A stretch of DNA of 64,000 nt from Deltaproteobacteria bacterium (lineage in GTDB: Bacteria > Desulfobacterota > Desulfarculia > Adiutricales > Adiutricaceae), in contig JAISRZ010000069.1 of the NCBI GenBank assembly GCA_031273455.1, positions 34,579 through 98,578 of the forward strand. Direction: 5' to 3'. The notes beneath the pieces are model-generated. The model had not been told where the DNA came from, ran no database searches, and saw nothing but the letters and a program-made list of their open reading frames with translations. Made by a program: the position numbers and the translations under genes. Positions 54,684 through 64,000 of this stretch are shown one piece after another (positions within the stretch are counted from its first letter, which is position 1; the number at the start of each line of letters is the position of its first letter).

Positions 54684-56543
54684 ATGATTAATAAGTGGAC
54701 ATTAGCGAATTTTAAATCTGTTAAATCAGAGACAGAGCTAACTTTTGCGCCATTAACTATTTTAACAGGTCAGAATAATAGTGGAAAGAGTACTATATTG
54801 CAATCAATTTTGCTAATTAGCCAAACTCTTTCTAATAAAATAGGAAGTCCGCCCATTGTTTTAAACGGATCCTTGGCCAGGCTTGGACAGTTCTCCGATC
54901 TCCGCTCATTTGGCAGTGAGTCTGACCATATAACAATTGGCTGGGAACAAAGAGCTCAATCACTTACCGGTTTTCAAAAAAATGGCTTCTTTGATTCTAA
55001 TACTCATCAAAAACACTTTTTTACGAATAAAAATAACAATTTTACCATCAAATGTTCTCTTTCATTTGACGCCGATATCAATTGCCCAGAAAGTGATTTA
55101 TATCAGCTTCAACCACAACTTTTAGAATTTAATATGTCTCTTTATGATTCGAATACATACAATAAAAATACAATATTTAAACTTAATGTCATACGTAACA
55201 ATGACTCTACATCTAAAATCGCTAATATAGATAACAAATCGCGAATAAGTTCGAATTATGATATCAGTCTTGATCAAATTTTATTAGATGAAATTCTTGA
55301 AAATTTTATCTCCGCTGAACTTATTGGCTGCAAATTAAGACATTTTCAACCAGATAAATTTATTATTAAGATTAATTTGATAGATGAGATTGCCTATATA
55401 TTGAAAAAAGCATTAATTGGTGATTTAAGATTATCTTCTTATAATTATTTTTATGATTTTCCTATTTCAACATCTGTCATTCAGCAGTTAAAGGACACAT
55501 TACATCTAGAAAAATTTCTATGGGAGAATTTAACGAATAGACTCTTCCAAAATATAACTATTGGTAAATTAATAGACGAAATAAATAAATTATCTCATAT
55601 TAAAATACGTAATTTATACCGTTTTACATGTAAGATTGATGAATTAGATAAAATTATATTCGATATTGTCAAAAATGAATTTGAAACAAATGAATTATCA
55701 TGTCAAATAGAAGGATATTGTAGACCTCCCTTGCGTTTTAGAAAAGCTTATCATTATATTGAAGAATATTTTTCAACTTCAGTAAAATATCTTAGTCCTC
55801 TGCGGTGTGAAACAAAGCCTTTATATCCAATATTCACTCACACGGATCCAACTGACATTGGACTTAAAGGTGAAATGACAGCGGCTGTCCTTAATATTCA
55901 CCGCCAAAGAAATATACTTTATATTCCTTCAGCGTCTTTTAGTCAAACGCCCTTTGACCTAACTCCTAAATCTGGCGATCTTAATGAGGCGGTTAACGAT
56001 TGGCTGAATTATCTTGGAATCGCCAAGGCCGTTGTTAGCGTGGATAAAGGAAAATTGGGGTCTGAGCTGAAAATTTCCCTAATCAATGGCGGACCGAGTC
56101 ATGACTTAACCCAGGCGGGAGTTGGCGTTAGTCAAGCGTTGCCAATCCTGGTAATGTCTTTGCTCGCTGACAAAGAAACTACGCTCATTTTCGAGCGGCC
56201 AGAACTACATCTTCACCCAATGGTTCAAGCTAAATTGGCTGATTTCTTCCTGTCAATTGTATTTTCAGGCAAACAATGTCTTATTGAGACACATAGTGAG
56301 TATCTAATCAATAGGATTCGCTATCGAGCCGCGGCTGAAGATTCAAACAATCGTGTAATTAAAAATTTGAAACTCTACTTTGTTGAAAACACTAAAGGCT
56401 CGTCTTTTTTTCGCCAAGTTGTCGTTAACGAATACGGCGCCATTTTGGCTTGGCCTAAAGGATTCTTTGACCAAAGTCCAGACGAAGCCGAGTCAATAAT
56501 TAGCGCGGCTATCGCCAAAAGGAAGCGGCCAAGAGTTATTTAG
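54684..56543 (+). CDS. AAA family ATPase with DUF3696-like C-terminus
   Basis: The 619 residues form an ABC/SMC-type AAA ATPase. The N-terminal IDKWTLxNFKSV-like sequence leads to Walker A TGQNNSGKSTILQS, then LARLGQFSDLRSFGS. A long divergent insert (about 90-370) follows. The second half has VGVSQALPILVMSLLA, Walker B TTLIFERPELHLHP, and the His switch CLIETHSEYLINRIR. The end, FFRQVVVNEYGAILAWPKGFFDQSPDEAESII, matches the DUF3696 family. Such ATPases are common in accessory and defence regions, often near nucleases. The gene is markedly AT-rich and is flanked by gaps, suggesting acquisition. No obvious partner gene is present. AAAGGA precedes the ATG. Confidence 0.88.
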   Translation: MINKWTLANFKSVKSETELTFAPLTILTGQNNSGKSTILQSILLISQTLSNKIGSPPIVLNGSLARLGQFSDLRSFGSESDHITIGWEQRAQSLTGFQKNGFFDSNTHQKHFFTNKNNNFTIKCSLSFDADINCPESDLYQLQPQLLEFNMSLYDSNTYNKNTIFKLNVIRNNDSTSKIANIDNKSRISSNYDISLDQILLDEILENFISAELIGCKLRHFQPDKFIIKINLIDEIAYILKKALIGDLRLSSYNYFYDFPISTSVIQQLKDTLHLEKFLWENLTNRLFQNITIGKLIDEINKLSHIKIRNLYRFTCKIDELDKIIFDIVKNEFETNELSCQIEGYCRPPLRFRKAYHYIEEYFSTSVKYLSPLRCETKPLYPIFTHTDPTDIGLKGEMTAAVLNIHRQRNILYIPSASFSQTPFDLTPKSGDLNEAVNDWLNYLGIAKAVVSVDKGKLGSELKISLINGGPSHDLTQAGVGVSQALPILVMSLLADKETTLIFERPELHLHPMVQAKLADFFLSIVFSGKQCLIETHSEYLINRIRYRAAAEDSNNRVIKNLKLYFVENTKGSSFFRQVVVNEYGAILAWPKGFFDQSPDEAESIISAAIAKRKRPRVI

Positions 56544-62683: not shown

Positions 62684-62713
62684 TTGACTTTCTATTCCGC
62701 GCTGGGGTAAAAT
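62684..62713 (+). promoter_or_regulatory. Sigma-70-like promoter upstream of the GFVTNSSSTSF gene
   Basis: TTGACT and TAAAAT are separated by 18 bases. The leader to the next gene would be about 345 bases and includes several hairpins. Confidence 0.5.
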
Positions 62714-62901: not shown

Positions 62902-63041
62902 TAGACCGCAGGGTCTAGACTTATCGGTCCTAGGGCCTCATCGAGGCCCTGGCGACCCTGGCCCTATCATAAACGCCCGACTCAGAGAAATTTTAGTTTA
63001 TTTGGCTTTTTTCCTAACGGTTTATAGCGCTTTCGCGCTAT
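62902..63041 (+). promoter_or_regulatory. Hairpin-rich leader
   Basis: Three perfect hairpins occur in a row: TAGACC/GGTCTA (6 bp, 62902-62917), AGGGCCTC/GAGGCCCT (8 bp, 3-base loop, 62932-62950) and ATAGCGC/GCGCTAT (7 bp, TTTC loop, 63024-63041). None is followed by a T-run, so they look like leader structure or protein-binding sites rather than terminators. The last is 24 bases from the ATG of the next gene. Confidence 0.45.
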
Positions 63042-63065
63042 TCTAAACGCCAGGGAGGCGTTATC

Positions 63066-63482
63066 ATGAAAGTTCGTCAAGGCTTTGTGACCAACAGCTC
63101 ATCCACTAGTTTTGTCATCTCGCTGAAAGGCGATTTTACGCGGGATAATTTTTTTAAGGCCTTAGGCCTAAAAAAAGACTTCCCTTTAGCCAATGTCATA
63201 ACTAGTTTATTTAAAACTATTCAGTCCAGGGCTGAAGATTTTGAGGAAATTATTCCTAAAGGCAAATCATTTGAAGATTTAACGCCTGAATGGCTAGCCG
63301 AAACGGACCACTGCGGTCTCGAAGAAGAACTGGACACCATCAAAAAGCTTTTGGCTGAAAAGCGAAAAGTTTATTTTGGAGAATTTTGGGATGATAATGG
63401 CGACGCGGCTGAAGCTTTTTTACGCTTTAGCTATTGTAGCGTTTCCACCGATGATCTGTATTTTGAGACCCTAAATGATTGA
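63066..63482 (+). CDS. Uncharacterised protein with N-terminal RQGFVTNSSSTSF motif
   Basis: The 138-residue protein starts MKVRQGFVTNSSSTSFVISLKG. This R-x-GFV-(S/T)-NSSS-x-SF start is, as far as I recall, shared by many otherwise different hypothetical bacterial, archaeal and phage proteins, always at the very N-terminus, with no known function. The rest is acidic and mixed alpha/beta: FFKALGLKKDF, ETDHCGLEEELDTIKKLLAEKRKVYFGEFWDDNGDAAEAFLRF. There is no signal peptide or membrane segment. AGGGAGGCG precedes the ATG. It stands alone after a hairpin-rich leader. I cannot assign a function. Confidence 0.85.
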   Translation: MKVRQGFVTNSSSTSFVISLKGDFTRDNFFKALGLKKDFPLANVITSLFKTIQSRAEDFEEIIPKGKSFEDLTPEWLAETDHCGLEEELDTIKKLLAEKRKVYFGEFWDDNGDAAEAFLRFSYCSVSTDDLYFETLND

Positions 63483-63867: not shown

Positions 63868-64000
63868 ATGACCCTAAAAAGATTACCATTAGGCGATAGG
63901 TCATTCCCGCAAATTATAGACGAGAACTTTTTATACGCGGACAAAACCAGATATATCTATGAGACCCTGAACGGCGACTCCAATCGTTATTTTTTGTCCC
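63868..64000 (+). CDS. AAA-ATPase-like protein (partial, continues past the window)
   Basis: Only the first 44 codons are visible: MTLKRLPLGDRSFPQIIDENFLYADKTRYIYETLNGDSNRYFLS. The order LPxGxxSFxxIIxxxxxYxDKTxYIxxLxxxxxxYFLS is the standard start of the AAA-ATPase_like family that carries a C-terminal PD-(D/E)XK domain, the same family as the gene at 39158. The expected P-loop (RPRRFGKS type) would lie just past the window end. AGGGAGAAG precedes the ATG at a good distance. Confidence 0.8.
   Translation, partial: MTLKRLPLGDRSFPQIIDENFLYADKTRYIYETLNGDSNRYFLS

Follow-up and report, generated by a model that had tools for sequence, protein, structure and literature searches.

A conserved N-terminal tag on unrelated phage, plasmid and bacterial proteins is linked to a SPASM/twitch-type radical SAM enzyme

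Introduction

Among the described systems closest to the locus reported here are the radical SAM RiPP systems, in which a SPASM/twitch maturase such as SkfB, equipped with auxiliary Fe-S cysteines, is encoded beside small genes with a conserved N-terminus. The leaders of RiPPs are conserved, and their cores vary. The anSME-type enzymes, which convert serine or cysteine to formylglycine, are likewise radical SAM proteins with auxiliary cysteines, and the sulfatase motif of their substrates is (C/S)xPxR. Phage T4 provides a case of a different kind, since its internal proteins carry an N-terminal capsid-targeting sequence. Finally, the Avs systems are defence systems based on antiviral STAND NTPases.

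The gene considered here lies in the 4.24-Mb draft genome of a deltaproteobacterium. The window, by which we mean the whole stretch of 64,000 nucleotides that was analysed, is the end of one contig (C27), and the sequence 3' of the gene is cut by the contig end. A first-pass annotation had noticed that the encoded protein starts with a motif that also heads many unrelated hypothetical proteins, and had proposed that it might be a modification, processing or targeting signal. Our analysis of the motif, of the proteins that carry it and of their gene neighborhoods supports a modification signal as the class of explanation, and a partner radical SAM enzyme has now been identified. The results suggest, from sequence comparison, a protein-modification system, so far undescribed, that may be common to phages, plasmids and bacteria.

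Results

The window gene and its leader

The gene and its surroundings have the following features.

62932 to 63062, + strand: leader region with three perfect hairpins (arms 62932-62950, 63024-63041 and 63046-63062)
63054 to 63058, + strand: ribosome-binding site GGAGG, 7 nt 5' of the ATG and partly within the 6-bp hairpin 63046-63062
63066 to 63482, + strand: coding sequence of the 138-aa tagged protein P0001, open reading frame MKVRQGFVTNSSSTSFVISLKG...
63066 to 63116, + strand: 17-residue N-terminal tag MKVRQGFVTNSSSTSFV
63117 to 63479, + strand: body domain (AlphaFold2 model)

Both the open reading frame and its N-terminal motif were confirmed as real. The body of the protein belongs to a cluster with 26 members among the loci read (cluster 4), phage proteins included, and has no match in Pfam or NCBIfam; in PHROG only the motif part of the protein finds a match, to phrog_7397, a family of unknown function. 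The AlphaFold2 model has a mean pLDDT of 85.5, with values below 50 for residues 1-10, which appear as a flexible tail, and its first strand comprises residues 14-20. A fold search with this model gave no match below E = 0.5 and identified no known fold. In the model the tag is mostly a flexible tail running into the first strand, an arrangement that would suit recognition by an enzyme.

The description of the gene as standing alone holds for this copy, which has about 1 kb on its 5' side without a convincing gene and the contig end on its 3' side, but not for the genome, where the other four copies adjoin a radical SAM gene. By eye, a gene start at 63868-64000, cut by the contig end, resembles AAA-ATPase/PD-(D/E)XK-type repeats, and similar open reading frames lie near tagged or enzyme genes in loci L349, L351, L353 and L011. 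Also by eye, an OLD/DUF3696-like AAA ATPase of 619 aa, possibly related to defence, is encoded at 54684-56543, about 6.5 kb upstream of the gene.

The first-pass annotation had further read the hairpins, together with a promoter far upstream, as signs of regulated expression. All three hairpins exist, and the leader RNA folds better than shuffled sequences (z = -3.05). The promoter-like site at 62684-62713, in contrast, is at chance level (3 such sites found versus 2.3 expected). No Rfam family matches the leader, and inspection by eye of the DNA 5' of the four paralogs on contig C138 revealed no matching hairpins. A hairpin leader or upstream promoter as part of the phenomenon is thus unsupported, and a riboswitch reading was rejected on the Rfam result and on the paralogs. 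We regard the hairpins as real and do not consider them part of the shared system.

The tag

Two DNA patterns of the motif were used. One was run against IMG/VR; the other, which omitted the start codon, picked up 103 stretches from viruses and another 10 from 257 Gb of prokaryotic genome sequence. Among the loci read, the consensus MK[I/V/T]RxGFVSNSSSSSF starts at residue 1 in 498 of 500 protein-level matches; of the two exceptions, the one in L137 arose by chance and the one in L133 has a broken start. The motif is therefore common and restricted to the first residues of open reading frames, as the first-pass annotation had stated, and the spread over bacteria, archaea and phages that it gave is supported as well. 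Chance N-terminal similarity was ruled out by these position statistics together with reversed-motif controls.

In all, the tag heads 414 distinct proteins; most of its carriers belong to large phages. Information is near maximal at R4, G6, F7, V8, N10, S11, S12, S15 and F16 and falls below 1 bit beyond residue 18; a hydrophobic pair at positions 17-18 is common to most bodies, and aspartate replaces glycine at position 6 in some cellular relatives (MKIRQDFVTNSSSTSF). At the invariant serines, AGY and TCN codons are about equally frequent, and where one locus encodes tags of identical protein sequence, the median difference between them is 9 of 33 bases. Because both serine codon blocks are used about equally and the bases differ, selection has acted on the amino acids and not on the DNA.

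The bodies behind the tag

With residues 1-18 removed, the 414 proteins fall into 143 BLAST clusters, and hhalign comparison of 20 body groups, each with at least three members, yielded 19 unrelated sets with no homology across sets. The first-pass annotation had named one ordinary domain family as the outcome that would count against it; neither BLAST clustering nor hhalign produced such a family, and the claim that unrelated proteins carry the motif was upheld. The motif is not a strand belonging to a single domain but a leader or tag.

The tagged proteins have a median length of 133 aa and domain-like bodies, among which no membrane-like segment was found. The bodies are acidic, with a median net charge of -9.6 per 100 residues and 97% of them negative, compared to 0.0 and 46% for the other open reading frames of the same loci (viral loci L013-L201; the comparison set includes unverified reading frames). 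Annotation of 96 body representatives pointed to no common function; it gave one DUF4325 and one phrog_132 protein and otherwise only weak single matches. The phrog_132 match is to a head-tail adaptor (E 3e-10). The largest body family (cluster 0; L017:729-1031 and 39 others) is rich in cysteine and histidine and zinc-ribbon-like, with the pattern CxxC...GWD...C..GH..C..H immediately after the tag. In large phages the tagged genes form arrays, with up to 9 full-length members per locus read.

The radical SAM partner

Clustering of the open reading frames that neighbor motif genes identified a radical SAM protein of about 350 aa as the commonest family, present at 68 loci, the runner-up family being present at 14. 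In all loci except L104 the enzyme gene shares its strand with the nearest motif gene, from which it is typically separated by no more than about 1 kb. When the enzyme was searched alone, motif genes were found within 10 kb in 72 of 80 viral loci (reversed-motif control, 0). This converse test is not fully independent, since genes adjacent to tags were the source of the first enzyme alignment. Of the other eight enzyme records, three carry real motif genes elsewhere. All 291 motif genes near the enzyme are on its strand, as against 88.6% of the other open reading frames of these loci. The enzyme is encoded by 37 of 50 large tag-bearing virus records, compared with 172 among 50,697 named phage records overall; the family is missing from the other 13, which may be fragments, and 8 of these have no radical SAM domain at all. 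Neighbors of motif genes include no recurrent transporter, exporter or protease.

Named phages that bear the enzyme include members of Slopekvirus and Pseudotevenvirus (KP15, KP27, Miro, RB43 and Lw1) and Vibrio phage D479. Exactly two motif genes are present in each of KP15 and Lw1, and in both phages about 20 kb separate the enzyme gene from them. In Lw1 the tagged genes are gp111 and gp116, and the enzyme gene is Lw1_gp161. The KP15 counterpart of gp116 is the tagged protein KP15_102, homologues of which were found in 175 records from the same genera.

The partner is a SPASM/twitch-type radical SAM enzyme and corresponds to phrog_7293, whose function is unknown. Its alignment shows CxxxCxxC in nearly all rows and four invariant cysteines (C258, C280, C298 and C342), and several members score above the cut-off for PF13186 SPASM. 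The AlphaFold model of the enzyme has a pLDDT of 92, and of the solved structures it most resembles that of SkfB, a maturase of RiPPs, followed by viperins. The enzyme also matches prokaryotic viperin models weakly; this reflects shared radical SAM sequence, and we claim no viperin activity. Taken together, we regard the reality of the tag and its linkage to the enzyme as practically certain.

Own paralogs, related genomes and plasmids

In the window's genome, the motif pattern gave matches in five genes only (reversed-pattern controls, 0). Four of these are tandem paralogs on contig C138, with 39-46% identity and the N-terminus M/V-KIRQGFVTNSSSTSF. The genome has exactly one copy of the enzyme (C138:299-1294), located about 1.1 kb upstream of this array; the window copy, being on another contig, is itself unlinked to it. 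Across 60 related genomes, the window's own included, the enzyme occurs in 12 of the 13 with the substrate family and in none of the 47 without it (Fisher p = 9e-12). In the exception, G029, substrates are present and no enzyme was detected in a draft that may be incomplete. On its contig C31 (L357:6856-7830) two tagged paralogs have no detected radical SAM gene, and could be orphan substrates or reflect a gap in the draft. Among 72,556 plasmids, enzyme and substrate occur on the same 7, where they are adjacent.

An operon with a STAND NTPase

Some bacteria and plasmids carry the pair within a larger operon, located as follows.

L343:1983-6438; L344:1987-6438; L359:3592-8044; L360:3596-8032; L345:5571-10026; L346:5050-9504: SMEK/Avs2-like STAND NTPase, 121-aa protein, tagged protein and radical SAM enzyme

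In the plasmids read, which are alphaproteobacterial, the genes follow the order SMEK-domain STAND NTPase, 121-aa protein, tagged protein and radical SAM enzyme, and they overlap or abut. These plasmids are from Rhodobacter CZR27, Rhizobium sophoriradicis, Agrobacterium Ach5 and Sta004, the last of which has no gene listed for the 121-aa protein. The same four genes occur in one genome of the window's class (G063) and one of its phylum (G283). The NTPase part matches Avs2 models (E 1e-20). A related NTPase in genome G148 differs in its N-terminal part. At locus L347 an operon variant has another N-terminal domain. The plasmid and chromosomal tag operons are small and without phage genes. In the available sequence of the window's genome, there is no STAND NTPase beside the C138 array or the window gene. 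The resemblance of the STAND operon to an immune operon hints at a putative function in phage defence.

Discussion

We propose a two-part system. One part would be a dedicated radical SAM enzyme, equipped with additional Fe-S cysteines, and the other a set of small, acidic, soluble, tagged substrates, of which the window protein would be one. The enzyme would recognise the flexible tail and modify a residue within it. Since the tag is the sole stretch common to the substrates, we postulate that it is what the enzyme binds and modifies, and we consider it likely that the enzyme acts on the tag. The likeliest targets would be the invariant N10-S11-S12-x-x-S15-F16 run or the F7-V8 pair, and the chemistry could be radical attack at an unactivated C-H bond, resulting in a cross-link, an oxidation or an epimerisation. 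Conceivably, bodies with no other relationship acquire a shared property from the modified tag, for instance a site for docking or an N-terminus that is locked. The single C138 enzyme of the window's genome would serve all five tagged proteins, acting on the window copy in trans. The chemistry and the biological role suggested here are conjectural, and the proposal as a whole is the reading that we favor and judge to be probable.

The enzyme could instead read the tag as a RiPP-type leader and perform its chemistry on the body, in a manner that differs by family. The division between a conserved leader and a variable core, the structural similarity of the enzyme to SkfB, and the position of the tail outside the fold in the AlphaFold model are all consistent with this idea. 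However, the bodies have no residue pattern in common and look less like core peptides than like folded domains of about 115-160 aa, and the conservation of N10, S11, S12, S15 and F16 is stricter than leader recognition usually requires. We therefore consider chemistry on the body unlikely, but worth keeping in mind.

The tag might also be a capsid-targeting or ejection signal like that of the T4 internal proteins, placed on unrelated small phage proteins that are packaged and injected and perhaps cleaved by a head protease, with the radical SAM gene merely a frequent neighbor. The arrays in large phages, whose bodies are unrelated, acidic and soluble, would fit such a function, as would the occurrence of the tag in T4-like phages and an anatomy that recalls the T4 internal proteins. 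Yet the tag is also found in bacterial genomes and plasmids, in the small operons that lack phage genes, and there too it is accompanied by the radical SAM partner, an enzyme that packaging does not need. A packaging signal is, in our estimation, improbable.

If all the tagged proteins belonged to one very divergent superfamily of domains, with the motif as its first strand, the bodies would merely appear unrelated; the strand at residues 14-20 of the window protein model and the hydrophobic pair behind the tag in most bodies could be taken in this sense. Against it, residues 1-10 are disordered in the model, the all-versus-all comparison of body profiles found no relation among the 19 sets, and the bodies are of several types, Cys-rich zinc-ribbon-like and DUF4325-like ones among them. 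A strand inside a domain would, moreover, neither far exceed all other positions in conservation nor predict a radical SAM neighbor, and we give the single-domain reading very little credence. A DNA- or mRNA-level element, such as a recombination seed or translation enhancer that codes by coincidence, would account for the constant position at the start codon, but it is largely refuted by the use of both unlinked serine codon blocks and by the base differences between identical tags, and its probability is close to nil.

On the favored reading, in which the enzyme modifies the tag, the presence of the pair within an Avs2-like STAND operon in some bacteria and plasmids would point to action in phage-host conflict. 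With the phage arrays and the bacterial STAND operon as pointers, we see the chances for and against such a role as about even. A more speculative extension, which we advance tentatively and think somewhat less probable than not, is that one enzyme-installed N-terminal mark on hypervariable, unrelated phage proteins could be a universal tag of accessory effectors, and that bacteria and plasmids captured the pair as a sensor or bait in a STAND-NTPase immune operon.

Hundreds of "hypothetical proteins" of large phages begin with this tag, and the link to an enzyme gives them a testable pathway. If the enzyme does modify the tag, a single radical SAM enzyme would modify many unrelated folded proteins, which would represent a new phage strategy and provide a candidate new component of STAND-type immunity. 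The tag may also serve as a short genetic handle for radical chemistry on any protein. The cultured carriers KP15, RB43 and Lw1 (the last on E. coli BL21) make experimental testing practical.

Comparison with described systems

The enzyme has the CxxxCxxC motif and auxiliary cysteines of radical SAM RiPP maturases and, like them, is genetically linked to its putative substrate genes. RiPP systems act on short peptides with a core that is excised or matured; here the substrates are apparently folded proteins, mostly of about 80-300 aa, with unrelated, domain-like bodies. The conserved part is the extreme N-terminus, no transporter or protease recurs, and many of the genes are on lytic phage genomes. 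Like the anSME-type enzymes, the partner has auxiliary cysteines, and serines in a short motif carried by folded proteins are among its candidate targets. Unlike in those systems, the NSSxxSF run does not follow the sulfatase pattern, the substrates are not sulfatases, and only four auxiliary cysteines are invariant. The T4 internal proteins resemble the tagged proteins in that a short N-terminal tag is shared by unrelated, variable phage proteins. The tag sequence itself differs, however, and rather than being confined to phages it occurs in cellular operons, plasmid and chromosomal, tied to a radical SAM enzyme.

The operon resembles the Avs systems in that its upstream gene matches Avs2 in the NTPase part and has an exchangeable N-terminal domain, either SMEK or another. 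It differs by the addition of the 121-aa protein, the tagged protein and the radical SAM enzyme, and its role in defence is putative; to our knowledge, no described Avs system has this combination. In the literature searched, which left most subscription journals and all preprints outside, the motif was not printed in any paper, and no paper was found that joins phage radical SAM proteins to such substrates; a search for proteomes of KP15-like phages likewise turned up none. PHROG holds both halves of the pair, the tagged proteins in phrog_7397 and the enzyme in phrog_7293, and lists them unconnected and without a function; the pairing of enzyme and tag is what the present analysis adds.
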